Positions 100 to 24,603 of a DNA stretch of 26,634 nucleotides are shown in pieces. The notes beneath the pieces were generated by a model, which saw only the letters and a list, made by a program, of their open reading frames with translations, was not told the DNA's origin and searched no databases. Every line of letters begins with the position of its first letter. Positions within the stretch are counted from its first letter, which is position 1. Origin of the DNA: a virus; IMG/VR virus record IMGVR_UViG_3300046385_000099, positions 1 through 26,634 of that record; one strand, 5' to 3'. The translations under genes were made by a program, and so were the position numbers.

Positions 100-107
100 G
101 GTAAATA
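100..107 (+). promoter_or_regulatory. late-promoter-like box GGTAAATA
   Basis: The octamer GGTAAATA lies in the only gap between the upstream gene and the gp25-like gene and ends exactly 5 nt before the ATG at 113. It shares TAAATA with the T4 late consensus TATAAATA. If the T4 geometry holds (box at -13 to -6), transcription would start on the A of the ATG. The same octamer recurs at 15112-15119. The match is partial and no transcript data are available. Confidence 0.4.
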
Positions 108-112
108 GGTGT

Positions 113-493
113 ATGCCAATTTACACATCAAAATTTCGCGGATACAGCTCAATTGGAACTAGTTTTTTAAGTCCAGTGCTTTACGATCTTGCCCTTGCAA
201 AACAAGACTTATTAAATCATTTTAACACTCGCAAAGGCGAGCGTATTATGATGCCAGAATTTGGCAGCATAGTATGGGACATGCTTTTTGAGCCATTGGA
301 CAGTCGCACAATCAATTTAATTGACTCGGATGTGCGTTCGATTATTAAAAATGATCCACGTTGGTTACTGCAAAGTGTAGAAATTAGCGAAGGCCCCAAT
401 GCACTTAACATTGAAGTTACAGTGACATATTTGCCATCAAACGAAACAGTAGTATTACCATTGGTATACGATAAAGGAACGAATACATTATGA
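113..493 (+). CDS. 25: baseplate wedge subunit, gp25/GPW family
   Basis: This 126-aa protein belongs to the gp25-like (GPW/gp25) family, a small lysozyme-fold-like subunit of the contractile-tail baseplate wedge that sits next to gp6 and gp53 in T4. The family signature is visible at about residues 41-60: GERIMMPEFGS followed by W and LFEPLD. The length matches T4 gp25 (132 aa). I chose the ATG at 113 (MPIYTSKF) over the in-frame TTG at 98 because homologues start near this point. Its stop overlaps the gp6-like start as ATGA (490-493), so the two are probably co-translated. There is no good Shine-Dalgarno: the only AGG lies 3 nt from the ATG, inside or against the TAAATA box. Confidence 0.9.
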   Translation: MPIYTSKFRGYSSIGTSFLSPVLYDLALAKQDLLNHFNTRKGERIMMPEFGSIVWDMLFEPLDSRTINLIDSDVRSIIKNDPRWLLQSVEISEGPNALNIEVTVTYLPSNETVVLPLVYDKGTNTL

Positions 494-3400
494 GCCAAAC
501 TAGACGCTTGGGACAATTAAATGCAGCCGAAGGCTGGCTAAACAATTATCGTTATCTGGTAAACGCAGACTTCAAAGCATATGACTTTGAAAGCCTAAGA
601 ACTGCTTTACTAAATTACATCCAATTAAATTATCCCGAAGACTTTAACGACTTTATCAGCTCAAGCGAATACGTTGCACTAGTTGACTTGATGTCTTTTA
701 TGGGACAAAACTTGGCATTCCGCAGTGACTTGAACTTGCGTGAAACATTTTTAGAAACAGCAGAAGTGCGCGGCAATGTATTAAGCATTGCTCGTCAACT
801 TGGCTATAAGTCATTCCGTAACGGTGCAGCCACGGGCTTCTTAAAGATTACTTCTGTAACAACTACACAAGAATTATATGACAGCAAAGGTACAAACTTA
901 GCCGGCAAAACTATTGTGTGGGCAGACCCGCTAAACTTAGACTTCAATGAACAGTTTTCTTTAATTCTAAATCAAGCACTAAACAAATCTAATCCAATTG
1001 GCCGTCCAGTAAGCTCAATTTCTACAAACGGTGTGTCTCGTCAATTATACGAACTTGACCAACCAGACACACGAACAATGGTAGAGTCATTTAGCCTAAC
1101 AGCACGAAACAACAACAGCTATCCATGTGAGATCGTTCCTGTTACAATTGACACTGCCACAGAGCTTGCAACAGAAAACACACCAAATCCTTATGGACGC
1201 CAAACTGTACTGTTTAACAATGACGGCACTGGTTACGGTTCTACTACCAATGGCTGGTTTTTTATGTTCAAACAAGGTTCATTGAAGTTTGAAGATTTTG
1301 TATTAAACACACGAGTAGAAAATCGTGTTATTGATTTACAAGGCAGCAACATAAATGAAACAGACGTGTGGGTACAAAGTGTTGATTCAGACGGTAAAGT
1401 ATTGTACGAATGGACTCCTGTTCCCAATACAAACAACAAGAACATTGTGTTCAACGCAGTGTCTAAAGACGTAAGAAAGGTATACGAAGTTATTACTCGA
1501 GAAAACGATTCTGTGTCATTAAAATTTGGCGATGACGTTTTTGCAGACATTCCCACAGGTAACATTCGTGTTTGGTATCGCGAAAGCGCAAATGAAACGC
1601 TGACAATTTCTGGCAATGATGTAGCAGGTTTAGAAATGTCAATTCGTTTTGTTGACAGTACATTTACAGAACAAGACTTAACAGTTACACTTGAGCTGAC
1701 AACAGCAGCATCAAGCACTGCTGGAGAAACACTGGAGCAAATTAAGAATCGTGCAAGTCGTACCAGCGCAAGCCAGGACCGTATGATCACTGCCAGTGAC
1801 TATAACATCTATCCTGAAGGCAAAGTGAGCGGAGTAGACAAGATCAAAGCAGTCAACAGAACACATGCTGGCCAAAGTGTTTATGCAGACTTGTCGGACC
1901 CAACAGGTACATACCGTTCAGTTATCACTTTTGCCGATGATGGCTTTGTATACGAAACTGAAGTAGTAACTGAAGATTCAAGAGACGCAGTCATTGGAGC
2001 CCAAGAGTTATTGTCATGGGTTGAAAACAGTTTATTAAACAGACAGTTGGCACAGCTATACTATAAAAAATATAGTCCAATTAAGCCAACAGTTGGTACA
2101 AATTTAAAGTGGGTAACAGTAAGCTCGGGCAACGCAACAACAACTGGCTATTTTTCAATAACTTCCAACAATAGCCCATTACGTGTTGGCCGTGGGAGTC
2201 CTGATTTAAAGTTTAGAACAATTGGTAAAAATACTCTGGTAAAAACTGCAAACGGAGTATGGACTCGTGTGCTAGACGTTTACCGCGAAGGTTTAGGTGT
2301 TAGTGATAACACTGGCGACAATACCGGCTTACGTGCCAATGGCCAAGGCTCGCTATTTGTTAATTCGATATTGCCAACTATTGCAATTGAATCGTGGTTC
2401 CCGGCATTGCGTACAATGTTTACGCCAACTGAACAACAAGAAATTCTCCGGGAGATTCGCGCAGGCCGTAGCTTTGGTTTAAAGTATGCCAACACTGCGA
2501 CTCAGCAAAACCGTTGGAAAATTATTCCTGCCGACTCTGTTGAAACTGCGGGCAACTTTGTTGTGCCAACAGATGCAAATGAAAATTCAGGTGCGTCTTG
2601 GTTGGTTCGATTAGAGTATGACTCTACAACAAGCACATGGACATTATTCTCTAGAAATGATCAAACAGTGTTTGGCAGTGTAGATCAGTTGACGTTTCAA
2701 AATCAACGGTTTGGACAAACAGTCGACTCAGCAGCTAAACGAGCATTAAAAGACACAATTAAATTCCTAACACAAAATGGTTTGGAAAACGAACTAACAT
2801 TGGATGTTGCCGACTACTTTAAGTTAGATGACGGACGATATGACTCGTCCAGAGTCATGCTATTGCTTCCGGGTCTAAGTGAAAACTTAGCACCAAATGA
2901 TCCTGACGTAATCAGTAAACTGATTACCGGCAATTTACAACTTAAAAAAGTACAATTTGTCGATACCAAAGGTCAATACACATTAAAGCCGTCTGACACC
3001 ACTGGCGTAGTCATGCCTGGGCGTAAAGATCTGCGCGTACAAAATACACACGTACCACTACGAGATAACCGCGTTGACGCAGCAACTACAAATATTGTTG
3101 ACATGTATGTATTAACATCAAATTATAACAGTGCTTATCGCGCCTGGGTAAACTCTGGAGCCGACGCTACAACAAAGCCAGTGACATTGACATCATATGG
3201 TTTAGAAAAACTAATGAGCTCTATTATTCCGTATAAAAGCATCAGTGATAGCATTGTGTTTCATCCTGTGAATTACAAAGTTATATTTGGTAAGACAGCC
3301 GATATTAGAAATCAAGTCACTATCCGTATTACAAAGAGCGAAACAACAAGAATCAGTGACGCAGAAATTCGCAGTCGAGTTGTTGGTGCTATTAATCAAT

Positions 3401-3618
3401 ACTTCTCTGTTGACAACTGGGAATTTGGCGAAACATTTTATTTCACTGACATGGCATCTTGGATACATAAACAGTTAGGTGGAGTCATTAGTAGTATTGT
3501 GCTAGTGCCAAAGCAAAAACAGTTAACAAGCAATGACTTGTTTCAAATCCCATGTGAAGACGATGAGATTTTTATTAGCAGTGCAACGGTAAATGACGTT
3601 GAAGTAGTTTCAAATTAA
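490..3618 (+). CDS. 6: baseplate wedge subunit, gp6-like (enlarged)
   Basis: This is a 1042-aa baseplate wedge protein of the T4 gp6 family, which forms the inner iris-like ring of the baseplate and initiates sheath contraction. The N-terminal 110 residues carry the familiar gp6-type pattern: NADFKAYDFESLR, then NYPEDFNDF, EYVALVDLMSFMGQNLAFR, LRETFLETA and ARQLGY. The C-terminal third (from about residue 900) has PYKSISDSIVFHPVNYKV and an SRVVGAINQYF segment, as in gp6/gpJ-type proteins. T4 gp6 is 660 aa, so this copy carries several hundred extra residues in its middle, as seen in T4-like phages of marine bacteria. It starts within the gp25-like stop codon and is followed 12 nt later by the giant structural gene, with an AAGG before that start. 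Confidence 0.88.
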   Translation: MSQTRRLGQLNAAEGWLNNYRYLVNADFKAYDFESLRTALLNYIQLNYPEDFNDFISSSEYVALVDLMSFMGQNLAFRSDLNLRETFLETAEVRGNVLSIARQLGYKSFRNGAATGFLKITSVTTTQELYDSKGTNLAGKTIVWADPLNLDFNEQFSLILNQALNKSNPIGRPVSSISTNGVSRQLYELDQPDTRTMVESFSLTARNNNSYPCEIVPVTIDTATELATENTPNPYGRQTVLFNNDGTGYGSTTNGWFFMFKQGSLKFEDFVLNTRVENRVIDLQGSNINETDVWVQSVDSDGKVLYEWTPVPNTNNKNIVFNAVSKDVRKVYEVITRENDSVSLKFGDDVFADIPTGNIRVWYRESANETLTISGNDVAGLEMSIRFVDSTFTEQDLTVTLELTTAASSTAGETLEQIKNRASRTSASQDRMITASDYNIYPEGKVSGVDKIKAVNRTHAGQSVYADLSDPTGTYRSVITFADDGFVYETEVVTEDSRDAVIGAQELLSWVENSLLNRQLAQLYYKKYSPIKPTVGTNLKWVTVSSGNATTTGYFSITSNNSPLRVGRGSPDLKFRTIGKNTLVKTANGVWTRVLDVYREGLGVSDNTGDNTGLRANGQGSLFVNSILPTIAIESWFPALRTMFTPTEQQEILREIRAGRSFGLKYANTATQQNRWKIIPADSVETAGNFVVPTDANENSGASWLVRLEYDSTTSTWTLFSRNDQTVFGSVDQLTFQNQRFGQTVDSAAKRALKDTIKFLTQNGLENELTLDVADYFKLDDGRYDSSRVMLLLPGLSENLAPNDPDVISKLITGNLQLKKVQFVDTKGQYTLKPSDTTGVVMPGRKDLRVQNTHVPLRDNRVDAATTNIVDMYVLTSNYNSAYRAWVNSGADATTKPVTLTSYGLEKLMSSIIPYKSISDSIVFHPVNYKVIFGKTADIRNQVTIRITKSETTRISDAEIRSRVVGAINQYFSVDNWEFGETFYFTDMASWIHKQLGGVISSIVLVPKQKQLTSNDLFQIPCEDDEIFISSATVNDVEVVSN

Positions 3619-3630
3619 TAAGGCAAAGAG

Positions 3631-6600
3631 ATGGCAAAAGATCCAAAAAAGTTAAATCCAATAGACCCATACAGTAAGACATACCCAGGCCAGGATTTAA
3701 ACACAGGTGTTGCACCCAGCACCACTGACTTATTACCAGCAATTTTTAGGACAGAGCCAAACAAAAAGGTTTTAAGTGCAGTAGTCGAAGACTTGTTTCA
3801 GCCAAGTTCCATTGAAACATTAAACTATGCAGTTGGCCGTAATAACACAAAATTCACTGGCTTGGATTACTTGCCGCACCCTACGGCTCGTAGACAATTA
3901 GAAACTGGTTTAGTAGTATTTGACAATATTGGCAATGCAAATACGTTAACCGCAGACGATATTGCGTCGGCATGGAACTTAAATGACAGAACAAATGAAA
4001 CTGTTGAAGCAATTAGCATCTTAGATCTACCAATTGATCCAGATAAGTTTTTAAATTGGGCAAACTATTACTGGGTTGATAGTCGTATGCCAGTGGTATT
4101 TTTAAATAGCGGCGATAATGCTTCGTTGAGCATTCAAAGCGACATCATTGGCAAAAAGTATTACACATCGCCTGTACAAGATAACGGCCGCAGCTTAGAG
4201 TTAAAAAACGGCATGCGAGTAGTATTCCAACAGCACCCAAATCATTCAGACATCACTGGTGATTTAGATTTAGACTTGTTTACCGACGGCACTGACCAGT
4301 TAAACTTAGAGTATGAGTTCGTTAACTACGACCGAGGTTTAATTGGAGTTTCAGTTGACGGTGTTATTTTAACACAAGGCGTTGAATACTACGTTGCTGG
4401 AAATAACATTTTTTGGATTACTCCTTTTGATGCATTAAAGCCAGTTCACGTTCACGTACCAGATTATTACATAACATTAGATACTGAAACCAGATTACGT
4501 ACTTGGTTAGTGTATGGTGTAGGTTCCGAAGAAGGCATTCAATTACTTGGCCTGCACTCGCAATTTACAAATACAGTTTACAGTAAACTATCAAATGCTC
4601 GTTGGGATGCACCTGCGTTACCATGGGACCGTTCTGAATGGGACGGCACAATTCCAGGTATTAACCCCAAGCAATATATTTTACAAGAACCAGGTGCAAA
4701 AAACAAAAATGCACACAGCAGAACAAACTGCTGGTTCCACAAGTCTGCTATTCAAACAACAGTTGACTTCTTGGGTATTCAATTTAGCGACATTGCAGAC
4801 AGCAACAGTCAAGCACTTCGACCAATTGTTGAATTTGAAAATACACTTGAGCTTTATAATCACGGCGTAAACTACAGAAACTGGACTACATTTTTGGTCG
4901 ACGAAGCCAGCGTAAGCATTGACGACTTTGTTAACTTGCCATTGGTAGATAAAAATACCACTACGTTAAACGCACGATACATGTCATTATTGACCAAATT
5001 GAATCGTCCAGTTGACATTGCAGTACAAACAGAAATTCAAGGCAAGTTGAAATTTGCATTAAATGCTTCTTCAATTCCTACTGTGGAATTAAACAATATC
5101 TTGTCAAGCCTTGACAAGGACGCCACAGCTGGCCGTACTCCAAAATATGCAGTTTATAAAGTAAACGGTAACCGCATTGAGTGGATTAAAAACGCACCAA
5201 CAAATACTAATTGGGTTATAACATATAGAATTTCTAAAGTGCTATTATCGGCATTGCGTATTCTATGGTTAACAAAAGACGCAAACGTTAACTCAATCTT
5301 AAACATTAGATCTGACGCAACAAAAACAGTAGGATATACTAAAGAAATTGCAAAAGATGGAGATGCTATTGTTGTTAATGTAACGTCATCAGATGACCCG
5401 CATTACCTTAAAGAGTATTACTGGAAAAACGGTGTTGCCACATTAGCAACATTCCGTAAGACTGCTATCCAACAACCGCTATTTGAATTGTATGCTCGTG
5501 ACGGGATCAAGTTAAGTGATAAGACTGCTTTCAAGCCAACTGTTATCAACAGTAACATTATCAAAATCAAAGCTGGTACAAAGTTTGACGATGAGTCGGG
5601 TTATACCATTGACTTTTTACCAACACAGTTTACACAATTATCTGCAGATAATACAGCAGCGGATAGCGTGTACAATATTTTATTTGAACACACTCTTCAG
5701 AAGCCTGCAATTTACACTGATGCAAGTGGAACACAATCAACAGTACCAGGCCCTTATTCATTCCGAAGATATGCTGGAAAAGATGTTGTATCTGAGTTAA
5801 GCAATGGATACCGCCGTGCCTGGTTTAAATTAAAGAGTTGGGCAATTCGTTCGGCACCAGTGTCAGGTGATACCACTATTCAATTGGATAGTTCAATGTG
5901 GCCCACTTACAATTGGGCAGTTAAAATTGCCAATGGTGTAGGCACAGTATTACATGCCGATGACTTTGTAGAAGTGGTTGATAACGTGGGGGTGGGTGCC
6001 CGAGGCCATCATATCTCTTTCAAAGTGTATCACAACGGTTTACAAACAGTTGCTACAGTAAGCGGCAGCGGATTTGAATCATTTGATGTCGGCGTAGTTG
6101 ATGGCACAGTTTCATTTATTGTACCTACCACAGCAGTTGACACACTAAAAGTTTCTATTGGCTTTATCTCTGTTACTGCCCGCTTAATTGAACTAAAAGA
6201 TGATCCTCGATTTGTCAAAGTTGCGTTAAACGGAATGCCGGTTGACTACTCAATTGATTCAACGGCCTATACTATTTCATTAACAGGCACTGGCGCAGTT
6301 GAAATCAATCATCAAGGCGATCAAATTGAGTCTGATCATATTACTGCGATTCCGGGCATTGATTACAATCCTGAACAGTATGAAAACTTCGACGAGATCA
6401 GTGTAGCAAGACTAATCAATGGGCTGTCTAAAAATATTGCAGTTAACACTGCCAATGCTCGTGAATGGGTTGATAGTCCACGGTTCAAAACCTTAGACGG
6501 CATTTATATGGCTGACAACAGTGCAATGCGCTCGTCATGGGCTAACTTTGCGCTACAGCCAAATCTTCGTGACGTTGTTGTAGCACGTTCTATGTCAGCA

Positions 6601-12333: not shown

Positions 12334-12352
12334 AGCGGGTTATTTTAAATAC

Positions 12353-12360
12353 ACTAAATA
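12353..12360 (+). promoter_or_regulatory. late-promoter-like box ACTAAATA
   Basis: ACTAAATA lies in the 32-nt gap behind the giant structural gene and ends exactly 5 nt before the ATG at 12366. It differs from the T4 late box TATAAATA at the first two positions (AC for TA). No purine-rich ribosome-binding site lies between box and ATG, so a transcript started here would be leaderless or nearly so. Confidence 0.5.
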
Positions 12361-12365
12361 TCAAT

Positions 12366-12992
12366 ATGAACATAACATCTTTGCCAGTTAAAATTACAAC
12401 ACACATTGTAATCAGTGATGCAGACTCTGGGGAAATCTTGCGAGAAGGATCAAACGCCATTCACCAAGAAAACATGAGCCAAGTGTTTGCCACTGCATTG
12501 TCGCACGGAACAAACAGCTTTATCAGCGAAATGCATTTTGGTAAAGGTGCAAGTGTAACTGCAATCAACGGCTCTATTTCTTATAGAACTCCTAATGTAT
12601 TTGGTACAAATTCAGATTTGTACAATCCACTATATTTTAAGGTAGTTGACGGGCAGGACTTAAACAATCTTGATGCCAACAGCAACAGTGTAACAGTAAC
12701 ACACACCACCGGAACAACTTATAGCAACACTGTGGTCACAGCAACATTGGAATACAACGACCCTGTTGCCAGCAACAGTGTTTTTAACATTGTCAACAGC
12801 ACCGAAAACAGTTTAAATGCCACCACAACAGTAGATGGCGAAATGGTTTTTGATGAAATTGCATTAAAAACAAAAGGCACAGCAGGTTTAAACTCTGGAA
12901 AGCTGTTAACGCATTTTATTTTCCACCCAGTTGAAAAAAGCTACAACCAACGTATACAGATTGTGTACACGCTAAAAGTTCAAGCTGGTTAA
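12366..12992 (+). CDS. virion structural-type protein, function unknown
   Basis: This is a 208-aa protein rich in Asn, Thr, Ser and Val, with a beta-strand-like alternation typical of tail-fibre or baseplate-attached phage proteins. The N-terminus is VKITTHIVISDADSGEIL. The C-terminal part (EIALKTKG, then LLTHFIFHPVEKS and IQIVYTLKV) resembles conserved ends of small structural proteins encoded beside tail-fibre genes in T4-like phages. I do not recognise a named family. It lies between the giant baseplate protein and a fibre protein and is preceded by a late-promoter-like box with no Shine-Dalgarno sequence, so it may be translated from a leaderless mRNA. Role inferred from context and composition only. 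Confidence 0.6.
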   Translation: MNITSLPVKITTHIVISDADSGEILREGSNAIHQENMSQVFATALSHGTNSFISEMHFGKGASVTAINGSISYRTPNVFGTNSDLYNPLYFKVVDGQDLNNLDANSNSVTVTHTTGTTYSNTVVTATLEYNDPVASNSVFNIVNSTENSLNATTTVDGEMVFDEIALKTKGTAGLNSGKLLTHFIFHPVEKSYNQRIQIVYTLKVQAG

Positions 12993-13003
12993 AGAGAATT
13001 TAA

Positions 13004-13011
13004 ACTAAATA
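13004..13011 (+). promoter_or_regulatory. late-promoter-like box ACTAAATA
   Basis: ACTAAATA here is identical to the box at 12353-12360 and is followed by TACAA. Projected T4 spacing puts the transcript start near 13017, giving a leader of about 25 nt that contains the AAGGA ribosome-binding site at 13030-13034. It is therefore the conventional, leadered version of the element seen elsewhere in this window. Confidence 0.5.
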
Positions 13012-13029
13012 TACAAAGGCATTAGCCAA

Positions 13030-13034
13030 AAGGA
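13030..13034 (+). promoter_or_regulatory. Shine-Dalgarno AAGGA for the tail-fibre-type gene
   Basis: AAGGA is followed by a 7-nt spacer before the ATG at 13042. This is among the best ribosome-binding sites in the window and fixes that start. It contrasts with the upstream gene at 12366, which has the same promoter-like box but no such site. Confidence 0.7.
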
Positions 13035-13041
13035 CGAGAAA

Positions 13042-14115
13042 ATGGCATACGAAGTAAACAAAGCAAACGGCGAAGTGTTAGTTAACCTAATTGACGGGGA
13101 AATTGACAACACCTCTACCAGTTTAAATTTATTGGGCAAGAACTATCTTGGTTACGGCGAATTGATTGCAGAAAACTTTGTTCACTTGCTAGAAAACTTT
13201 GCAAGTAGCATTGAGCCAATTAGCCCGGTAAGTGGTCAACAATGGTTCGACACTGGCGAGTTGCGTTTAAAGTTAAACACAGATAACTCAAACTGGAAGA
13301 CACTTGCATTCTTGGCTGCACAAAACAGCTCACCAGCAGCAAGCAATTCAATTAGAGGCGACATTTGGTATGATACTGCCAATAATGCCGTTAAGATTTA
13401 CACAACCGACACAACATTACCAGGTACAAATGGCAACGGTTGGATGAATATTGGCGCATTCCAAGGCACACGCGACACTGCAACTGGTATGACATTCTTA
13501 GATCTGTTGGACACCAATCGTACCTTGCACAAAGTAGTTGCGCTGTATGCCTCAGGTGTATGCGTTATGATTATTAGTTCTGACGCCGACTTTACCATTG
13601 CCGAATCACATGCAGTACCGGGCTTTGCTGAGATTGGCAAAGGCATCAACATGAATACCAGTGGCCGCGATTCAACTGGATTTGATACAAACGCATTCAA
13701 GTTACGCGGTATTTCTATGGAAGCTGAATTTGCCGACGTTGCAGAGATTTATGTAAGTGATGCAGCATACGAGCCAGGTACATTGGTATCGCTGGGTGGC
13801 GACAAAGAAGTCACGCAAACAACTACCGCCGGTGACACAAACATTTTTGGTATTGTTTCAACTCGCCCAGCTTACTTGATGAATGCAAAACAAAAACGCG
13901 AAAAGAACGCATTGCCAATTGCAGTTGCTGGCCGCATTCCAGTTAAAGTAACTGGCATAGTCAAGCGCGGCGACCGCTTGGTATCAAGCGATATTCCAGG
14001 TGTTGCACGAGTTGCCACACAACAAGATCCAGCCTGGAGTATTGTTGGCCGTAGTTTGGGCGAGTTTAGCGGAGAAGGCATTGGCAAAGTCGAAGCCACA
14101 GTTGGAGCACGATAA
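13042..14115 (+). CDS. tail-fibre-type virion protein
   Basis: This is a 357-aa protein. Its N-terminal region has the GYGELIAENFVHLLENFA pattern followed by two copies of a short unit (GQQWFDT with LRLK, and GDIWYDT with VKIY), as found in repeat-bearing tail fibres of T4-like marine phages. The C-terminal part (about residues 225-357) reads as a separate beta-rich domain: FADVAEIYVSD, PGTLVSLGG, then IAVAGRIPVKVTG. This resembles the head of peptidase-G2/intramolecular-chaperone-type fibre ends, but I see no certain autocleavage motif. The stop shares its last A with the next start (TAATG at 14113-14117), so the two products are probably made together. Likely role: receptor-contacting or fibre-attachment protein in the virion. 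Confidence 0.72.
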   Translation: MAYEVNKANGEVLVNLIDGEIDNTSTSLNLLGKNYLGYGELIAENFVHLLENFASSIEPISPVSGQQWFDTGELRLKLNTDNSNWKTLAFLAAQNSSPAASNSIRGDIWYDTANNAVKIYTTDTTLPGTNGNGWMNIGAFQGTRDTATGMTFLDLLDTNRTLHKVVALYASGVCVMIISSDADFTIAESHAVPGFAEIGKGINMNTSGRDSTGFDTNAFKLRGISMEAEFADVAEIYVSDAAYEPGTLVSLGGDKEVTQTTTAGDTNIFGIVSTRPAYLMNAKQKREKNALPIAVAGRIPVKVTGIVKRGDRLVSSDIPGVARVATQQDPAWSIVGRSLGEFSGEGIGKVEATVGAR

Positions 14116-15086
14116 TGGCTATTCAGCGTAAAAAGATTACCGCTGAAGACCTAAACACGTTGGCATCCGACGTTAATGAATTGTTTGGCGACACTCATGC
14201 AGGCCAGGGTCCTTCAACTGACTTGCAAACTCAAGACGACATTCGTTGGGGCTGGGGCGGAGACAATGTTGAATATGTTCAGCCAAAGCAAAAGCTGACA
14301 GCGGCTTTTACAAATGAATTGGTTAATCGTATTAACCTAAGCACCTACAGAACAAATAGCACTGATCAGGAGCTTGTTATTGTTGCCCAAGGTGAAAAAG
14401 TAACAGCAGAATTTTTTAACACCGCAGCAAGTTTGTTAGATTCGGCACGCAATTCTCGTAACAAAGTTGATCCGGCACTAACAACTTTAACAACAATCAA
14501 AACAGTTACAAGCACAGTTGATAATTGGAACAACCAGTTAGAAAACGCAGTCCAGTTTAACTTTACTGGTTACGAAAGTGCTCGTCACTTTTTCAATGCT
14601 GGAGGTGACATTCGTTTAGTGTTTTCCATCACAGACGGTGCAGGCGCCGGATACAACACATGGGGCGGCATCTTTTTGGACCAGGGTACCCTGAGACTAA
14701 ACGTTGACACAATGGCCAGCTTAAACAACCGTGGCGTCAGTCAAGATGTTGGTTTTGCTGAACTTGCACTTAGTGAACAACTACTATACACTAGCCCATC
14801 TGGAGGCAGTAGCGGTTATGGCGGTTATGGGGGCTACGGCGGTTATGGGGGCTACGGCGGTTATGGCGGTTACGCTTCTAGTCGCGCTAAAATCTATGGC
14901 AGCATTGTTGGTGGTAATCTGCAATTGCGCACACTATTGGACCACGCAGGTCTAGGGACCAAAGTAACAGGTACAATCACCATGGTAGTATCTGTTTCTC
15001 ATCCATCTACTGTTACTGAAAATGGTGTAACACTGAGCCTTCCGACTCCTACGGCAACTATACATACGCCTTGGCAAGAAATCTAA
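14115..15086 (+). CDS. virion/tail-fibre-associated protein with Gly-Gly-Tyr repeat loop
   Basis: This is a 323-aa protein. It starts with a helical-looking N-terminus (RKKITAEDLNTLASDVNELFG), contains the short motif IRWGWGGDN, a middle beta-rich region, and at about residues 234-253 a run of one GY and six GGY units flanked by Ser. The fold family is not recognised. The repeat sits in an otherwise ordered-looking sequence and probably forms an exposed glycine-rich loop. Glycine-rich loops are known in receptor-binding adhesins of T-even phages (gp38), so a receptor-contact role is plausible but inferred. It overlaps the fibre gene before it by one base. The next gap (15087-15147) holds a promoter-like box and no other gene. 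Confidence 0.65.
   Translation: MAIQRKKITAEDLNTLASDVNELFGDTHAGQGPSTDLQTQDDIRWGWGGDNVEYVQPKQKLTAAFTNELVNRINLSTYRTNSTDQELVIVAQGEKVTAEFFNTAASLLDSARNSRNKVDPALTTLTTIKTVTSTVDNWNNQLENAVQFNFTGYESARHFFNAGGDIRLVFSITDGAGAGYNTWGGIFLDQGTLRLNVDTMASLNNRGVSQDVGFAELALSEQLLYTSPSGGSSGYGGYGGYGGYGGYGGYGGYASSRAKIYGSIVGGNLQLRTLLDHAGLGTKVTGTITMVVSVSHPSTVTENGVTLSLPTPTATIHTPWQEI
14814..14873 (+). repeat. in-frame 9-nt (GGY) repeat with 18-nt higher-order unit
   Basis: The tract encodes GY followed by six GGY triplets. Codon choice alternates (GGC GGT TAT then GGG GGC TAC), and that 18-nt unit occurs twice in a row, which points to recent duplication by slippage or unequal recombination. The copy number is therefore likely to vary between related phages while keeping the frame. 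Confidence 0.9.
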
Positions 15087-15111
15087 TTGGTTAAACCAGA
15101 GTTTGTACGCT

Positions 15112-15119
15112 GGTAAATA
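15112..15119 (+). promoter_or_regulatory. late-promoter-like box GGTAAATA
   Basis: GGTAAATA is identical to the box at 100-107 and lies in the 61-nt gap between the GGY-repeat gene and the 114-aa gene. T4-like spacing would start the transcript near 15125, about 23 nt before the ATG at 15148. The leader has only a weak TGGA as a ribosome-binding site. It would be the last box before the accessory cassette and could drive all of it. Confidence 0.4.
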
Positions 15120-15147
15120 ACAGCATACATAATAATTCTGGAACCAA

Positions 15148-15492
15148 ATGGATAAACGCCTAACCGATGCATTGGCATTTGCCAATTATAGATTAACACT
15201 GCAAGTTCAGAGACAAAATATTGACGCACGAGTTCAAGCGGCATTGTTGGTGTCTTATCAGAATGCAATTTTTAAAACTTCACAAGAACTAATTGGATTT
15301 GTGGGCCTTAAAACCATGCGTTCAGACCGATTACTTGTAGAAGATAACAGCGGCAACGTTATCCAAATTGAAAATCCAAATGAGTTCTTGACTATTCTAA
15401 TCAATGTATATGACGCAGCAATGGAATTAAAGCAGCAAGAACTTCAAAAATTAAAGTCAGCAAGAAGCACGGCTAAAATTGTAGGGCTGTAA
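15148..15492 (+). CDS. small conserved T4-like phage protein, function unknown
   Basis: This 114-aa, mostly helical protein has a long central sequence ELIGFVGLKTMRSDRLLVEDN and a charged helical C-terminus (MELKQQELQKLKSAR). Proteins of this shape and size occur near structural genes in T4-like phages of marine bacteria, but I cannot name a function. There is no signal peptide, membrane segment or catalytic motif. It stops one base before the ATG of the first glycosyltransferase-like gene, so it belongs to the same transcript as the cassette behind it. Confidence 0.6.
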   Translation: MDKRLTDALAFANYRLTLQVQRQNIDARVQAALLVSYQNAIFKTSQELIGFVGLKTMRSDRLLVEDNSGNVIQIENPNEFLTILINVYDAAMELKQQELQKLKSARSTAKIVGL

Positions 15493-15493
15493 T

Positions 15494-18065: not shown

Positions 18066-19011
18066 CGTAGTCTTTATCAGCTATGATGAACCAAATGCAG
18101 ATGAAAACTATGCAGACCTACTAGAAAAGTGCCCATGGGCCAAGCGCAGTCATGGAGTGTATGGTAGCGATGCTTGCCACAAAGCAGCAGCCAAGCTAGC
18201 TGAAACCGAACGCTTTATCACAATTGATGCAGACAACAAAGTTCGCCCTGACTTCTTTGAAATGGAACTTGACTTGACCAAGTTTGATCGCAGTGACGTA
18301 CTAAGCTGGTCGGGCAAAAACGTTATCAATGGTTTGGTATATGGCAATGGTGGTGTTAAGCTATGGCCCAAGAAAGTTGTAGAACAAATGCGTACACACG
18401 AAGCAGTTGATTCTGGCGCAGGCGCAGTTGACTTTTGTTGGGACATTCACTATCATCAACTAAACAACATCTATTCAGATGTGTATAACAATTCTACCCC
18501 ATATCAATCATACCGCGCCGGGTTTCGAGAAGGTGTTAAACTTGCATTAACAGACGGTAAGCCAATGGACTGGCGACAAATTGCTGCCCGCAACAACTTT
18601 AAAAATCATCGCAGACTATTAGTTTGGATGAGCGTTGGCCAAGATGTACAAAACGGATTGTGGGCCATGTATGGCGCACGTCTAGGTTGCTACTTAACTA
18701 ACCTTCGCAGTGACTGGGACTATAAATTGGTAGCAGACTTCGAGTGGCACAATCAATATTGGTCTGACACAGTGGTGCCTATGTTTGCCGGCAACGAAGA
18801 ACAGTGCCCTGTTACCAAATACTCTTGGAGTAAAACAAAGCTAATGGCAGAGACTGTCAAGTTAGGCCGTGTATTGCGACAGGACTTGCAGTTAGACATT
18901 GCTGAGTTAGACGAAGCTGGTAGTAAATTCTTTAAAGCAAGTTTCTTTAATCCACATCGACTAGCACCTCACATCAAAGAAAGCGATGTTGACCAGTTTA
19001 TTGCTGAATAA
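18040..19011 (+). CDS. glycosyltransferase-like protein (GT-A), tandem paralogue 1
   Basis: This 323-aa protein has a GT-A-type N-terminus: VVFISYDEPNADENY at the first strand, CPWAKR, the conserved HKAAAKLAETERF (H47) and the metal-binding D63-A-D65 in FITIDADNKVRPDFF. A second conserved block is NGLVYGNGGVKLWPKK (about residues 97-112), followed by RLLVWMSVGQDVQNGLWAMYGA. These blocks are all repeated in the next gene, showing an in-place duplication. It begins with GTG inside the previous gene and ends sharing an A with the next start (TAATG). Sugar donor and acceptor are unknown. A related class of putative glycosyltransferases is common in T4-like marine phages. Confidence 0.7.
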   Translation: MKTPITEFDVVFISYDEPNADENYADLLEKCPWAKRSHGVYGSDACHKAAAKLAETERFITIDADNKVRPDFFEMELDLTKFDRSDVLSWSGKNVINGLVYGNGGVKLWPKKVVEQMRTHEAVDSGAGAVDFCWDIHYHQLNNIYSDVYNNSTPYQSYRAGFREGVKLALTDGKPMDWRQIAARNNFKNHRRLLVWMSVGQDVQNGLWAMYGARLGCYLTNLRSDWDYKLVADFEWHNQYWSDTVVPMFAGNEEQCPVTKYSWSKTKLMAETVKLGRVLRQDLQLDIAELDEAGSKFFKASFFNPHRLAPHIKESDVDQFIAE

Positions 19012-19892
19012 TGCTTGACGTATTTTTTATTTCAATGGGCGAAGAAGGTAGTGAAGCCAATTGGCAACGACTGCTTTCTTTTGCACCAGGTGCCAAGCGG
19101 GTTGATAACGTTAAAGGCATATACAATGTACATAAAGCCTGTGCGCAGTTGAGTACAACTGAAAACTTTTATGTTGTAGATGCCGACGCTTGGGTCCTTG
19201 ACGGATTCAAGTTCCATTGGGAACCAGACGTTAACACATTACACTGGGATGTTCCTGAAACAGAATGTGTTATTGTGTGGCCGAGCCGTAATCCTGTTAA
19301 TGGATTGGAGTATGGTTACGGTGGCATTAAAATGTTTCCGCGAGTACCATTCTTAGAAAACAAGTCCTGGGACATTGATCTATCTACTACTATCAGTCGC
19401 GCCACAATTAGCAAAGAACAAGTCAGTTGCGAAACACGATTTAATGTTACACCAGAATCAGCATGGATTGGAGCGTTTCGTGAATGTGCTAAACTTTCAT
19501 CATTGTCAATGATTAAAAGTAGGGTGCGTAAAGCAATTAAAACTAGAAATGCAGAACTTGCAGAACTTACAGAACGTACAAACGTATTAACAGATAGGAT
19601 TCCCACGAATCATGCCATGTACCGTAAGATTCAAAGTATGCTTATCATTGACCGATACAAGCGCGAGTCAGACATTTATTCGTACTGGACAGAAATTGAA
19701 GAATGCAGCCACCGAAGATTACACTGGACCGCAGTCGGCTGGGAAGCCCCCAATGGAAAATATAGTGTACTTGGAGCGCAAGCTGGATCTAACTTTGGAT
19801 TGCAACATGCTGATGATTTAGCGATACTAGATAAAATCAATGATTGGGACTGGCTACGAGAGGAATTTAAAAATGTCAATGTTCAATGCTAA
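19011..19892 (+). CDS. glycosyltransferase-like protein (GT-A), tandem paralogue 2 with coiled-coil insert
   Basis: This 293-aa homologue of the gene before it has DVFFISMGEEGSEANWQRLL, PGAKR, HKACAQLSTTENF (H41), D57-A-D59 in YVVDADAW, NGLEYGYGGIKMFPR and RLHWTAVGWEAPNGKYSVLGA. It differs by a basic, heptad-like helical region at about residues 165-215 (RVRKAIKTRNAELAELTERT), which could mediate pairing with its paralogue. The DAD motif is intact, so both copies may be active and could form a heterodimer or act in sequence on one glycan. A strong GAGGA occurs near its end (19860-19864) and may serve the frame-ambiguous junction that follows. Confidence 0.68.
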   Translation: MLDVFFISMGEEGSEANWQRLLSFAPGAKRVDNVKGIYNVHKACAQLSTTENFYVVDADAWVLDGFKFHWEPDVNTLHWDVPETECVIVWPSRNPVNGLEYGYGGIKMFPRVPFLENKSWDIDLSTTISRATISKEQVSCETRFNVTPESAWIGAFRECAKLSSLSMIKSRVRKAIKTRNAELAELTERTNVLTDRIPTNHAMYRKIQSMLIIDRYKRESDIYSYWTEIEECSHRRLHWTAVGWEAPNGKYSVLGAQAGSNFGLQHADDLAILDKINDWDWLREEFKNVNVQC

Positions 19893-19944
19893 CCCAAAAA
19901 GCAGAATTCCTAGTACTGTACAACGATGCAGAGTGGCACACTAA
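19873..19944 (+). other. 23-codon small open frame with good Shine-Dalgarno (doubtful gene)
   Basis: This short frame, MSMFNANPKSR..., starts 8 nt behind GAGGA (19860-19864), overlaps the end of the glycosyltransferase paralogue, and stops at TAA 19942-19944. It may be a tiny coupled peptide, a decayed start of the following gene, or chance. It competes with the frame at 19886-19975 in the same interval. Confidence 0.2.
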
Positions 19945-19975
19945 TTTAAGTTTATATGGATGGTTCCGTGGATAA
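19886..19975 (+). other. 29-codon open frame overlapping two genes; possible frameshifted N-terminus
   Basis: The ATG at 19886 overlaps the preceding stop (ATGCTAA), the typical junction style of this cassette. The frame encodes MLTQKAEFLVLYNDAEW... with protein-like composition and ends at TAA 19973-19975, inside the next coding sequence. The next gene continues in the +1 frame. A single-base change or a +1 ribosomal shift near GGA-TAA would fuse the two into one protein of about 415 residues. Alternatively it is an independent small coupled gene. Confidence 0.35.
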
Positions 19976-21125
19976 AAATACTGAGTTGAGATCATCGTTA
20001 TTATACTTTGTCGATGAAGCAATTGGCTATAGACACAGCTTGCACTTCTTTCATCGTTGGTTAGAAACTGGCAAACAATCCGAATTAGAAGGATTGATAA
20101 TTGAAGTTGGTCGAGAAAACTTTGTTGACTTGCACTCAATTATAAACACAATTAAAGATCCAGAATGTCATGCTGGATTTGGGGTCATTGACGACATTGC
20201 ACGCATCAAAGGCCTACACGTACCCACTGAGTGGGTCAATGGCAACGAAGTAAAATTAACTCCACTAACAGTAGCAAACCCAAATCATCCTACGCTATTT
20301 GAGTTGTGCAATTGGACAAACGATAATGCAACCAAGATAGCCAATCCTGCTGCGGTCATTTGCAAAGCACACAGTTTATTACATGAGTCTCGCACTAACT
20401 TTTATAAAGTGTTTAACTTAATGGAAGTGCTATTTGGGCTTAACACAATCTTTTCATGTGTCATTGACAGCAACATCAATCGTACAGGCCAGGCCATAAG
20501 CCATTACTATCCAACGCAAGCTGACTATATTACTCGTCTTGCCAGCACAATATCTAACAACCCAGACTTAAATTGGAAAGACGCACTGAGTCGCAACCAG
20601 GTCAAAAGCAAGTTGTGGCTGATTGATCGGCTAAACAAACTAGAAGTATTTGCCAAAAAGCAAAGCATCAATGATGCGGAAACAACTACATTGGTAGTTG
20701 GCGGCTGGGTAGGTATGATTCCTTTCTTGGCAAGTATGAGCCAACTGAATCTTGGCAACGTAATCAACATTGATATTGACACCAGTGTGCATTCAGCAGC
20801 ACATGAACTTAATACCAACACACACAGCAATTTTAAAAATTCTGGTACTGATGTAAGAGAGGTCGATCTTACAAAATACAAGAATCCATTAGTCATTGAC
20901 ACGATTGTTGAGCACTTTGAGAATCACGGCAAGTGGGTCAAAACACTGCCCAAAGGAACCACAGTGGTACTACAAGGAAATGACATGTTTAACGTACCTG
21001 ACCATGTCAACTGCCATACAACATTAGAAGACTTTATTGGGTCATGCGGGTTAAATAACATTATCTGGGCTGGGGAACTCAATCTCCATATGTGTACCAG
21101 GTATATGGCCATTGGTACTACATGA
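19956..21125 (+). CDS. SAM-dependent methyltransferase-like protein
   Basis: This protein has 389 aa from the ATG at 19956; a GTG at 19968 is also possible, and neither has a clear ribosome-binding site. The C-terminal half looks like a class I Rossmann methyltransferase: a TTLVVGGWVGMIPF glycine loop at about residues 244-257, an acidic strand end NIDID at 271-275, a later DTIVEHFE segment, and a LPKGTTVVLQGNDM strand. The N-terminal 230 residues are helical and not recognised. The reaction is inferred from fold only, since the loop is not the standard GxGxG. It overlaps the dioxygenase-like gene as ATGA at 21122-21125. Its own 5' end is unclear, because a protein-like 29-codon frame feeds into it out of register. 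Confidence 0.55.
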   Translation: MDGSVDKNTELRSSLLYFVDEAIGYRHSLHFFHRWLETGKQSELEGLIIEVGRENFVDLHSIINTIKDPECHAGFGVIDDIARIKGLHVPTEWVNGNEVKLTPLTVANPNHPTLFELCNWTNDNATKIANPAAVICKAHSLLHESRTNFYKVFNLMEVLFGLNTIFSCVIDSNINRTGQAISHYYPTQADYITRLASTISNNPDLNWKDALSRNQVKSKLWLIDRLNKLEVFAKKQSINDAETTTLVVGGWVGMIPFLASMSQLNLGNVINIDIDTSVHSAAHELNTNTHSNFKNSGTDVREVDLTKYKNPLVIDTIVEHFENHGKWVKTLPKGTTVVLQGNDMFNVPDHVNCHTTLEDFIGSCGLNNIIWAGELNLHMCTRYMAIGTT

Positions 21126-21424
21126 ACGTTGATAAACGATTTAAACGATACAATAATTTTAAAGTATACCGTGCAAGATTATTAACAATGCATCCTCGAA
21201 CTGGTTATAGTATACACATTGATCAGACTCCTTGTATACATATTGCAATCAACACGCATCGACAAGCACGATTTATTTTTACTAATCCTCCAGCGTTGCG
21301 CCATATTCCAGCTGACGGACATGTTTGGTGGGTTGACACACGCCAAGAACATTCGGCAATGAATGGTAGTTTAGAGCCACGCATTCACTTTGTTGCTTGC
21401 CTGGATAACACAGACTCAGATTAA
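21122..21424 (+). CDS. aspartyl/asparaginyl beta-hydroxylase-like 2-oxoglutarate/Fe(II) dioxygenase
   Basis: This 100-aa protein matches the core of the Asp/Asn beta-hydroxylase family, enzymes that use Fe(II), O2 and 2-oxoglutarate to hydroxylate aspartyl or asparaginyl side chains or related small molecules. The facial triad is visible as H32-x-D34 in GYSIHIDQTP and H77 in RQEHSAMNGS, and R87 in PRIHFVACLD is the expected 2-oxoglutarate salt-bridge residue. The spacing fits a double-stranded beta-helix with very little extra sequence, making it a minimal member. I chose the ATG in the ATGA overlap at 21122 over the in-frame GTG at 21092. Position next to the PP-loop and GNAT-like genes suggests that it tailors the same product. 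Confidence 0.75.
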   Translation: MNVDKRFKRYNNFKVYRARLLTMHPRTGYSIHIDQTPCIHIAINTHRQARFIFTNPPALRHIPADGHVWWVDTRQEHSAMNGSLEPRIHFVACLDNTDSD

Positions 21425-21439
21425 GTCATACATAAAGGT

Positions 21440-22054
21440 ATGACATTAGAAGTTATTCATACCTGCGCCGACGACTTTGGTAGCGTAGTATCTCTGTACC
21501 AAGATTTCTTAACAGAAATTGCAAAAGATCCTCTACCAGCAATGGTTAACATGGGGTATGACTTGCCTGCAGGGTTGGGCCACCTGGTTACAAATCGTTC
21601 ACGTTGGACCCGTGACACGGGCCGCATTGACTTATTACTTGACAGTGGACGCATTGTTGGAGTTAGTGCAGTAGAAACAAGTTCACTTTCGAGCGCATTT
21701 GGCAACGGCGGCAATCGTTGCTGGTTACTGCCAAAATATCGTGTTCATAATGAAATTACAAAGTATTTGCTAGCATCAAATTTACAATGGTGCACGGAAC
21801 AACAGCATGCGGGAATGATACTGACATTTAACGACTACAACAAATGGATCTATACCACAATCAAAAAACGCACCACAGGCCAAGCTGGCGCACTTGGCCC
21901 AGTTTGGAGCAACTGGTGGAATGATTGTATTCCGTTTGAGCATCAATTGAATGTATTCAGTACTCCGCAATGGGCAGTAGTAAAACCCATTGCAAGTACA
22001 GATGTTGTACTAGACGGAATGAATAACATTGACAGAGAATTTAGAATAACATGA
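21440..22054 (+). CDS. GNAT-like acyltransferase, copy 1
   Basis: This is a 204-aa protein. A glycine-bearing core strand (IDLLLDSGRIVGVSAVETS, about residues 63-81) and a following WLLPKYRVHNEITKYLLASNLQWC helix region suggest the GCN5-related N-acetyltransferase (GNAT) fold. The acetyl-CoA loop is degenerate, so this is a fold-level guess. The start has AAAGG only 1 nt upstream of the ATG, which is too close for normal use, while the stop overlaps the PP-loop gene as ATGA at 22051-22054. Together with the gene at 22983 it brackets the PP-loop enzyme, a layout that suggests one pathway with activation and acyl-transfer steps. Confidence 0.5.
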   Translation: MTLEVIHTCADDFGSVVSLYQDFLTEIAKDPLPAMVNMGYDLPAGLGHLVTNRSRWTRDTGRIDLLLDSGRIVGVSAVETSSLSSAFGNGGNRCWLLPKYRVHNEITKYLLASNLQWCTEQQHAGMILTFNDYNKWIYTTIKKRTTGQAGALGPVWSNWWNDCIPFEHQLNVFSTPQWAVVKPIASTDVVLDGMNNIDREFRIT

Positions 22055-22998
22055 TTGTAAACACAGAAAATAGTCACCTGGTGTATTGGTACAACGACAA
22101 CAAGTCTAGTATCTGGAGAACCGACGATTTTGATACCACTTCAATGAGTGTGGGAGGATGTACCAGAAAGCCAATGAAACTCCAAGCAGAACTAATCAGA
22201 AATGCTCGTTCATTGATTAGACAATATCCTGATTTGACTATTTTTATGAGTGGTGGATTAGACAGTGAAATGGCACTACGTTCTTTTCTTGCTGCTGGTA
22301 TTACTCCTAAACTGGTTACTGTAAGATTCCCCCACGACAACAACATACACGACATTGGTCCAATGATCACAATGCTAAACAGCATGGGTTTGGAATATTC
22401 CATTATTGACATTGATCCCGACGCATTTTATTACTCAGGGGAATGGAAAGAAATTGCAGTAAAGTACCAAGCCTATACATTTTATCAACAAATGTTATTA
22501 AAAATTGCAGAGCAATACAATGCTCCAATGATCACAGTAGACGAAGTTGAGCTTGAAAATTTGCCAACTGTTGATTACGAAACCGGCCAGTATAAGTTTA
22601 ATTGGTCTTTTTTGAAAAAAGAAGATCAAGACGGAGTGTGGCGCCGCTTTAACGAAAAGACTGGCATCCCTGCGTTAAATAATTTTTATACCTACAGTCC
22701 AGAATCTATTTTGGCATTTTTAAAAGAAGACACAGTTGCAAATCTCATAAGAGGTAATATTCCTTATAAGCTGTCATGGACTTCATCTAAGATGAAAATT
22801 TATGGATCGCTGGGATACAATTTTAGAAAGCGACCAAAGTGGCACGGTGTGGAAAATTACATGCACTTATGGGATATGGTAAACTATAATCTTGGCCAAA
22901 CTGGATTGCACTATAGTCCCAGGCACTATGCAGTACCTGCACTAGAACTAGAACATAATTTAGAAACAGGAAAACAAACACTATGTCAGACCGCATAA
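22051..22998 (+). CDS. PP-loop ATPase, asparagine-synthase-like, without amidotransferase domain
   Basis: This 315-aa protein has the N-type ATP pyrophosphatase signature S67-G-G-L-D-S72 in TIFMSGGLDSEMAL. Enzymes of this class adenylate a carboxylate or related group and release pyrophosphate before amide or similar bond formation (asparagine synthase, QueC and relatives). The N-terminal glutaminase domain of AsnB-type asparagine synthases is absent: only about 60 residues precede the loop. A VDEVELENLP segment follows at about residues 167-176, where asparagine synthases carry a GDE-type motif. It would therefore need free ammonia or an amine substrate. It overlaps both GNAT-like neighbours (4 nt upstream, 16 nt downstream). 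Confidence 0.72.
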   Translation: MIVNTENSHLVYWYNDNKSSIWRTDDFDTTSMSVGGCTRKPMKLQAELIRNARSLIRQYPDLTIFMSGGLDSEMALRSFLAAGITPKLVTVRFPHDNNIHDIGPMITMLNSMGLEYSIIDIDPDAFYYSGEWKEIAVKYQAYTFYQQMLLKIAEQYNAPMITVDEVELENLPTVDYETGQYKFNWSFLKKEDQDGVWRRFNEKTGIPALNNFYTYSPESILAFLKEDTVANLIRGNIPYKLSWTSSKMKIYGSLGYNFRKRPKWHGVENYMHLWDMVNYNLGQTGLHYSPRHYAVPALELEHNLETGKQTLCQTA

Positions 22999-23621
22999 TC
23001 CCCCTTAACAGTACACATCTAACAGGACTAGTCAACTTTGCCGACGGCATTTACAAAAATGCTGACCCGGACAAATATCCAGATTTTCGCATTTCAGCGG
23101 ACATCGACGACCATGCCAAGCGAACTAAATTTTTTAGTGCATTTTTAGTCCCTAGTAGCTTCAACGATTATAATATCAGGCAAGCGTATGCATTTGTCAA
23201 TGATGACGGGGAGTATCAAGCCGCCGTAGGTGTACGCAGATGGGGTCATATGCCAAGTTGGAGTGTTGGTTGGTTATTGAGTCCAAGCCTTGGAGTACGT
23301 TTTATTCCAATGTTTAGAAAAATAATGGACGAGCTGTGCAAAATACACGAAGCCGCAGGCATGAATGAGTTTTATGTAACGTACCCAACAAGTCGCGAAG
23401 CAGCGTATAGTAAGATCATGCTGCCCTTTCGAGATCGCTACTACAGTTTTGTTGAATGTACGCTGCCAGCAAAAACAGTAAGTCCTTATGGATTTATTCA
23501 CTCGTTAATGGGATCAACAATTCACCCACATGATATGAATCTACGAAGATACATACTACGAAGAGAAAATACCGAGCCTGAAAGTCAAGGCGGCATTGTT
23601 AACAGAAAATTTAAAAAATGA
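22983..23621 (+). CDS. GNAT-like acyltransferase, copy 2
   Basis: This 212-aa protein has a GNAT-type layout: AAVGVRRWGHMPSWSVGWLL as the central strands, a helix MFRKIMDELCKIHEAAG, and FYVTYPTSREAAYSKIMLPF towards the end. The acetyl-CoA binding loop is not canonical, so the acyl donor is unknown. The C-terminal 30 residues are basic and Arg-rich. It starts 16 nt inside the PP-loop gene with AGGA upstream and ends as ATGA with the desaturase. It is comparable in size and position to the copy at 21440, but direct similarity between the two is weak by eye. Confidence 0.5.
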   Translation: MSDRIIPLNSTHLTGLVNFADGIYKNADPDKYPDFRISADIDDHAKRTKFFSAFLVPSSFNDYNIRQAYAFVNDDGEYQAAVGVRRWGHMPSWSVGWLLSPSLGVRFIPMFRKIMDELCKIHEAAGMNEFYVTYPTSREAAYSKIMLPFRDRYYSFVECTLPAKTVSPYGFIHSLMGSTIHPHDMNLRRYILRRENTEPESQGGIVNRKFKK

Positions 23622-24502
23622 AAAATTGGTTAAACAAACAAGTAGAGTTGTATCGTAAGACACACCAGATTCCGTACATATTAGCAGTATGGTTGCCTTA
23701 TCACGTGGCAGCAATTGCAGTAATTGCTTATACCATTGCAACAGGCTGGTCATGGAGCTATATGCTTCTTGCCGTTTGCGGCTGGGTATTGCTAGACGGT
23801 GTTGGCAATAACTTGACACTGCATCGTTGGTTAAGCCATAAAAGCTGGACTCCACATAAATGGGCAGAACCATTCTTATTATGGGCAAGTACCATGGTAG
23901 GAGAAGGTAGTCCGTTATGGTGGGTAGCACTACACCGCGGGCATCATCATCGAGTAAGTGACCAGCCAGGAGAAGACATTCATACTCCAGTTGGCAATGG
24001 ATGGTGGCATAGCTATATGGGTTGGCAGTTTGGCATCGACCAAAAATCAGTTGGCTTTCGTTACGCAGTTGACTTGCTAAGAGATCGTCGTGTTACATTT
24101 ATTCATGAAAACTACAACAAAATCATCTATGGCACATTGCTGTTGAGTGCATTCTTGTTTGGATGGCAAGCTACCGTTTGGTTCTTTGTCGTTGGTGCGT
24201 TAATGAGCTTGCATGCAGACGGTCTAGTAAACACATTCGGGCACGTACCTGGCGCTGGCTACCAAAACTTCAACAACAAAGATGCAAGTACTAACGTATG
24301 GGCAATTGGATACTTTCACTGGGGGTCGGGTTGGCACAACAATCATCATGCCAAAGCAAGTTCATTTGATTTTGGTACTTCAGTGAGTGGTCGCCCCCAT
24401 GAATTTGATCCGTGCTTGGTTTTGGTGATTCCGTTTGCTCCGCTTTCGGAGACTAAACGCTTGTGGTTGTTACGTAAAGATGCTATACTAGCTAAACAAT
24501 AA
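23618..24502 (+). CDS. membrane fatty-acid (acyl-lipid/acyl-CoA delta-9-type) desaturase
   Basis: This 294-aa integral membrane di-iron enzyme introduces a double bond into acyl chains. All three histidine boxes are intact: H69-RWLS-H74, H106-RG-H109-H110 and H240-NN-H243-H244, with NTFGH (H209) before the third, as in delta-9 type desaturases. Hydrophobic segments at about residues 20-42, 45-66 and 167-198 fit the expected hairpin topology, and the length is normal for the family. It needs host ferredoxin or another electron donor. It overlaps the preceding GNAT-like gene as ATGA. Lipid desaturases have been described in marine cyanophages. Here the gene closes a cassette of transferases, so it could act on general membrane lipids or on a lipid made by the cassette. 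Confidence 0.9.
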   Translation: MKNWLNKQVELYRKTHQIPYILAVWLPYHVAAIAVIAYTIATGWSWSYMLLAVCGWVLLDGVGNNLTLHRWLSHKSWTPHKWAEPFLLWASTMVGEGSPLWWVALHRGHHHRVSDQPGEDIHTPVGNGWWHSYMGWQFGIDQKSVGFRYAVDLLRDRRVTFIHENYNKIIYGTLLLSAFLFGWQATVWFFVVGALMSLHADGLVNTFGHVPGAGYQNFNNKDASTNVWAIGYFHWGSGWHNNHHAKASSFDFGTSVSGRPHEFDPCLVLVIPFAPLSETKRLWLLRKDAILAKQ

Positions 24503-24505
24503 GGA
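24501..24505 (+). promoter_or_regulatory. Shine-Dalgarno AAGGA of the thyX remnant
   Basis: AAGGA overlaps the desaturase stop and lies 5 nt before the ATG at 24511. It is a functional-looking ribosome-binding site that now serves only an 18-codon frame, which supports the view that a full gene once started here. Confidence 0.7.
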
Positions 24506-24510
24506 ACAAC

Positions 24511-24567
24511 ATGACAGTACGACTTTTATCTTTCTCACAACCGACGGCAGAATTTAAAAATAAGTAA
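24511..24567 (+). pseudogene. 5' remnant of a second thyX (18 codons)
   Basis: With a strong AAGGA upstream, this frame encodes MTVRLLSFSQPTAEFKNK and stops. It aligns without gaps to the first 18 residues of the intact ThyX at 25341 (MKVELVSHSAPSTEMVGN), with identity at M1, V3, L5, S7, S9, P11 and E14. The resemblance to other phage ThyX N-termini is also good. The simplest reading is that thyX once followed the desaturase directly and was interrupted near codon 17 when the HNH gene arrived together with another thyX 5' end. It may still be translated as a short peptide. Confidence 0.75.
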
Positions 24568-24590
24568 CCTGCTGTAGTTTCAATCTCAAT

Positions 24591-24598
24591 CATAAATA
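24591..24598 (+). promoter_or_regulatory. late-promoter-like box CATAAATA
   Basis: CATAAATA matches seven of eight positions of the T4 late consensus TATAAATA and ends exactly 5 nt before the ATG of the HNH gene. With T4 spacing the transcript would begin at the A of that ATG. A late promoter belonging to a homing endonuclease gene has precedent in T4 (I-TevI). No ribosome-binding site lies between box and ATG. Confidence 0.6.
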
Positions 24599-24603
24599 CT
24601 TTT

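Follow-up and report, generated by a model that had tools for sequence, protein, structure and literature searches.

A class of probable T4-type late promoter boxes placed exactly five nucleotides before the start codon, with predicted leaderless mRNAs

T4-type late promoters appear to be used in two settings by the phages studied here, a group of aquatic T4 relatives: one leadered with a Shine-Dalgarno sequence, and one leaderless, in which the A of the AUG would be the first nucleotide transcribed; we place the probability of this reading at roughly 0.85. Its computed basis is an exact box-to-ATG spacing spread over unrelated genes, a missing Shine-Dalgarno sequence, T at -1, weak 5' structure and a late sigma factor encoded in relatives. 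The 5' end was placed from T4 geometry and the T at -1; the +1 position, initiation by gp55-RNAP and leaderless translation are predictions. On these grounds the 5-nt class would be a new form of T4-type late promoter, predicted to be leaderless.

In the proposed mechanism the boxes would be T4-type late promoters whose octamer, NNTAAATA, occupies -13 to -6, and they would be recognised by the host's RNA polymerase once it has bound a gp55-family sigma factor of the phage. A box ~15-60 nt upstream would give an mRNA leader with a Shine-Dalgarno sequence. A box exactly 5 nt before the ATG would direct RNA synthesis from the A of the start codon, and ribosomes (probably 70S) would initiate on the 5'-terminal AUG of the leaderless mRNA.

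The window, which is the whole stretch of DNA analysed (26,634 nucleotides), is a 26.6-kb virus fragment of the T4 superfamily with the baseplate genes gp25 and gp6. It also carries genes for a 2900-aa virion protein, a fatty-acid desaturase, an HNH endonuclease and ThyX. A 60.8-kb contig (G006) belongs to the same species (match >99.97%). Relatives were sought using the gp6-like gene of the window as query; the nearest isolates were jumbo phages such as PA5oct, Atu_ph07 and GAP32 (31-36% identity), and many environmental contigs were nearer to the window (50-100% identity). The features used below are as follows.

100..107, + strand: late-promoter box GGTAAATA, at -13 to -6, 5 nt before ATG 113
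108..112, + strand: spacer sequence GGTGT, with T at -1
113..493, + strand: gp25-like baseplate wedge gene, predicted leaderless with A of ATG as +1 (phrog_43, E 1e-17; PF04965, E 2e-12)
490..3618, + strand: gp6-like baseplate wedge gene, downstream of gp25 (phrog_10646, E 6e-246)
12344..12351, + strand: second, upstream box TTTAAATA, 14 nt before ATG 12366
12353..12360, + strand: late-promoter box ACTAAATA, 5 nt before ATG 12366, exactly 5 nt in 18 relatives
12366..12992, + strand: 208-aa protein of unknown function (phrog_11259), predicted leaderless
13004..13011, + strand: late-promoter box ACTAAATA, leadered type, 30 nt before ATG
13017..13041, + strand: predicted 25-nt leader, start placed by T4 geometry, AAGGA at 13030-13034
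13042..14115, + strand: 357-aa virion-like protein, leadered control gene (phrog_14394 / phrog_6427)
15112..15119, + strand: late-promoter box GGTAAATA, leadered type, 28 nt before ATG 15148
15125..15147, + strand: predicted 23-nt leader, weak GGAA at 15140-15143
24591..24598, + strand: late-promoter box CATAAATA, 5 nt before ATG 24604
24604..25344, + strand: HNH homing-endonuclease-like ORF, predicted leaderless (PF13392, E 9e-9; phrog_12434, E 4e-23)

An earlier note on this DNA had reported five octamers, and all five were located in the window sequence. The distance of exactly 5 nt that it gave for the boxes at 100, 12353 and 24591 was confirmed, as was the AAGGA in the predicted leader of the gene behind the 13004 box. 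Its claim that every sizeable gap holds a box is an overstatement: five gaps of at least 30 nt do, and a sixth, of 63 nt (19893-19955), has no TAAATA, a count that depends on the start call beside that gap. The ATGs following the three 5-nt boxes open ORFs of 126, 208 and 246 aa, and a search of the phage's own genome for the box-5 nt-ATG pattern returned these three sites only (reversed-pattern control, 0). Over the whole window TAAATA is rarer than chance (11 copies, 24.9 expected) and is concentrated between genes, with 6 of the 10 plus-strand copies within 446 intergenic nt (P ~4e-9). The octamers share the TAAATA core and vary in the first two bases (TA, A/G-C), within the consensus range of PMC2988020. 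The position of the gp25 box in the window is kept in 50 of the 56 box-ATG rows of the gp25 family in relatives, where the spacer is constant in length and variable in sequence. The gap at 12334-12365 holds two boxes, the extra one, TTTAAATA, lying 9 nt upstream of the 12353 box.

Several further observations were made in the window. TAAATA at 25320 precedes the ThyX start by 15 nt, AGGAA lying in the interval, and may be a short-leader promoter (25320-25340) within the end of the HNH ORF. The HNH ORF contains near-identical internal repeats of ~147 bp (86%) at 24907-25149, and the HNH gene with its own box appeared in the window's species only. The window and the same-species contig G006 have different copy numbers of a Gly/Tyr tandem repeat (window 14814-14874).

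Spacing was expressed as k, the distance in nt from box to ATG, and was first counted over 79 related loci and the window using ATG ORFs of at least 60 aa. TAAATA preceded the ATG at k=5 in 57 cases and at any other k in 0-6; permuted hexamers gave no k=5 peak in the same loci. Start codons at k=5 were 57 ATG, 0 GTG and 1 TTG (ORFs of at least 60 aa), GTG and TTG being rare anyway. Because gp25 dominates the raw loci counts, the count was repeated, first over the whole length of large contigs and afterwards per protein family. Genome-wide, seven contigs (G001, G002, G003, G004, G006, G007 and G008) had a k=5 peak with P from 2e-4 to 7e-10, and an eighth of the jumbo clade, G005, gave P 0.03. 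By family, TAAATA-N5-ATG occurred in 28 unrelated gene families of 91 related sequences, whereas other spacings averaged 4.5 families (P ~7e-14). Chance as the cause of the spacing was ruled out by the permuted hexamers, the reversed-pattern controls and the family-level counts. An unbiased scan of all hexamers at all positions before 917 called starts, with no box assumed, gave the top rank to TAAATA at -11 (29 observed, 2.3 expected), on a par with Shine-Dalgarno hexamers, and the variant TAAGTA was likewise enriched at -11. Gene starts outside deposited annotations were called by a simple codon-usage caller written for the analysis, not by a published gene finder. Random spacing genome-wide, which the earlier note had named as a refuting result, was not what the counts showed: the spacing is strongly non-random among the jumbo-phage relatives as well as the pelagimyophages.

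If +1 is the A of the ATG, the box spans -13 to -6, which matches T4 geometry. T stands at -1 in 24 of 28 k=5 families, compared with 31% of all starts (P 5e-9), and had not been selected for; it fits the pyrimidine-purine pattern of transcription start sites. From -45 to -14 no strong conservation that would mark a -35 element was found in the 28 families, and the late-promoter octamer has been described as sitting at the -10 site without a -35 element (PMC2988020). A Shine-Dalgarno core was present in 6% of k=5 genes, 85% of leadered box genes and 51% of box-free genes (P 6e-18), the low value at k=5 arising partly because the box fills -11 to -6. The earlier note's remark that its three 5-nt genes lack a Shine-Dalgarno sequence extends to relatives, where longer-spacing genes have one. 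A point against the leaderless reading is that GGTGT, the spacer before gp25, looks like an extended Shine-Dalgarno sequence, though most other spacers do not. The k=5 genes also fold weakly at the 5' end (mean MFE -2.2 vs -3.2 kcal/mol over 40 nt; P 0.002). The predicted leaders have a bimodal length distribution in which short ones are rare, spacings of 9-14 (equivalent to leaders of 4-9 nt) being sparse; measured leaders of Lactococcus cremoris are bimodal with a similar gap at 4-14 nt (PMC10986495). The T at -1 and the weak 5' structure are two agreeing signs that the earlier note did not foresee. The note's observation is correct in essentials and its reading as late leaderless expression is well supported, +1 and translation being predicted from sequence.

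The start may vary by 1 nt. G001 (loci L084-L098) has, beside its 5-nt class, a second class at k=4 (8 ORFs of at least 50 aa), and k=6 is found in many pelagimyophage gp25 genes. In some genes transcription may therefore start off by one or leave 1 nt before the ATG.

Of 12 large related contigs, 10 encode a late sigma factor of the gp55 family (E 1e-83 to 1e-91), as the earlier note had proposed looking for. In the contigs compared the gene lies ~6-7 kb upstream of gp25 on the opposite strand. It was seen in relatives only, the window and the 60.8-kb same-species contig both ending short of its expected position. A gp45-type clamp gave no phrog_223 or PF02916 match in the jumbo clade, a search that divergent clamps could escape; the authors on phage CBB likewise reported no gp45 clamp (PMC5259590).

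Outside the jumbo clade, the cultured Pelagibacter phage HTVC008M has 12 ORFs at k=5 (P 1.5e-11). All 11 of those within the annotated regions examined begin at the deposited CDS start, and they are mostly virion genes, including gp25, gp2-type DNA end protector, head closure, tail tube cap, tape measure and tail completion. At 18916-18943 of HTVC008M, divergent late genes have both of their 5-nt boxes within one 26-nt gap. The related 146-kb contig G017 shows the k=5 peak (P 1.7e-8), Mosig has a weaker signal (P 3e-4) and Melnitz is borderline. Among 79 further pelagimyophage-like loci, most have the gp25 box 5 or 6 nt ahead of the same start. The peak is absent from T4, Syn9, P-SSM4, PA5oct and Atu_ph07, whose boxes are mostly ~20-33 nt upstream; with these five lacking it and Melnitz borderline, the proposal that all T4 relatives are alike was rejected. 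By gp25 similarity, PA5oct and Atu_ph07 are nearer to the window than HTVC008M is, yet they are peak-free, and we infer that the trait probably arose on two occasions or was lost more than once.

Genome compaction could in principle bring a real promoter close to the ATG without translational meaning, the genes being read mainly from upstream operon transcripts. Intergenic gaps are short and several k=5 genes closely follow a same-strand gene, as compaction would have it, but it would spread spacings over 0-15, whereas 5 dominates and 0-3 and 9-14 are sparse. Nor does it account for k=5 genes without a Shine-Dalgarno sequence while their neighbours carry one, and T4 and Syn9 are compact too, yet have no k=5 peak; we regard this explanation as improbable. 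The element might instead work at the RNA level, serving ahead of the AUG as an S1 site or an A/U-rich site for ribosomes and not as a promoter, which would agree with its occupying the Shine-Dalgarno position and replacing that sequence. Such a role is nevertheless very improbable, given that leadered Shine-Dalgarno genes have the same box upstream, that the box agrees with the T4 and Aeh1 late consensus (PMC2988020), that relatives encode the gp55 sigma, and that the exact register and the T at -1 fit transcription initiation.

The late promoter might also merely favour ATG as the first transcribed triplet, with the real start codons elsewhere. A few leadered boxes do show ATG at +1, but this position varies among them, with ATG in 9 of 134 (G001-G004 and G006), at least 2 of which stem from start calls placed by the script downstream of a k=5 ATG. 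The ATGs in question are where protein alignments begin, and where the independent annotation of HTVC008M places the starts. An initiator preference for ATG was rejected, as leadered boxes do not share ATG at +1, and we give this account hardly any weight.

Some leaders carry a 5'-terminal AUG themselves. At G001 87450 (-), G002 73544 (+) and G003 53067 (-) a box and 5 nt are followed by ATGAGAGGATTTAATT-ATG or a close variant; here the 5'-terminal AUG overlaps the leader of a Shine-Dalgarno gene and is kept in three phages. The leader of a gene whose product begins MAQLVSPGVSV and is tail-sheath-like by sequence (G001 93292 (-), G004 12769 (-) and the G003 sheath gene) has a short hairpin, AAGGG...CCCTT, at its predicted 5' end. 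Conserved 5' micro-ORFs were rejected as genes: several belong to the leaders of genes with a Shine-Dalgarno sequence, and G003 does not keep the uAUG that precedes the sheath gene.

The 5-nt spacing links promoter and start codon to the base in abundant, ecologically important phages, one of which grows on cultured Pelagibacter. Dozens of exact 5' ends are predicted, and start-codon annotation of these genomes is improved. Late-promoter prediction in pelagimyophages has been reported as failed (PMC7029224), which the 5-nt spacing may explain. It is conceivable, though we consider it unlikely, that late in infection the phages push the pool of host ribosomes towards leaderless initiation. Such a shift would favour leaderless virion genes over host Shine-Dalgarno mRNAs, and the spacing of the promoter would form one of the two parts of a transcription-translation switch. 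The ribosomal protein bS21 (encoded in G002 at 178173, also annotated in HTVC008M) or the pelagimyophage peptide deformylase could take part in it. No bS21 gene was found in G001, G003 or G004, and phage bS21 was rejected as a general cause.

T4 late mRNAs typically have Shine-Dalgarno leaders. T4 late promoters (gp55-RNAP, TATAAATA) share with the boxes described here a TAAATA-core octamer, the lack of a -35 element, a position before virion genes and a gp55-family sigma, which here is encoded in relatives. They differ in that T4 boxes are mostly 23-29 nt before the ATG (peak at k=28), with Shine-Dalgarno leaders, whereas here a large class stands at 5 nt, and in the gp45 clamp, which was not found in the jumbo clade. 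A search of the open-access literature turned up no previous account of late mRNAs without leaders in phages of the T4 type. The AC/GC reported at -13/-12 in phage Aeh1 (PMC2988020) occurs in the same way in the present boxes. The giant phages phiKZ and AR9 have short late-promoter motifs as well, but these are read by phage multisubunit RNAPs, and the phiKZ motif T(-3)ATG(+1) and the AR9 leaders of 26-491 nt are unlike what is found here (PMC7598289, PMC5312081). In E. coli 5'-uAUG mRNAs of the ptrB type, a 5'-terminal AUG binds 70S even before a Shine-Dalgarno gene (PMC4965119); unlike that type, a 5' AUG is found here on a minority of leadered boxes only. Leaderless mRNAs of bacteria and lambda cI likewise have an AUG at the 5' end (predicted here), no Shine-Dalgarno sequence and weak 5' structure. 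Those are single genes or a host-wide habit, whereas the predicted leaderless state here would be systematic in one promoter class controlling virion genes.
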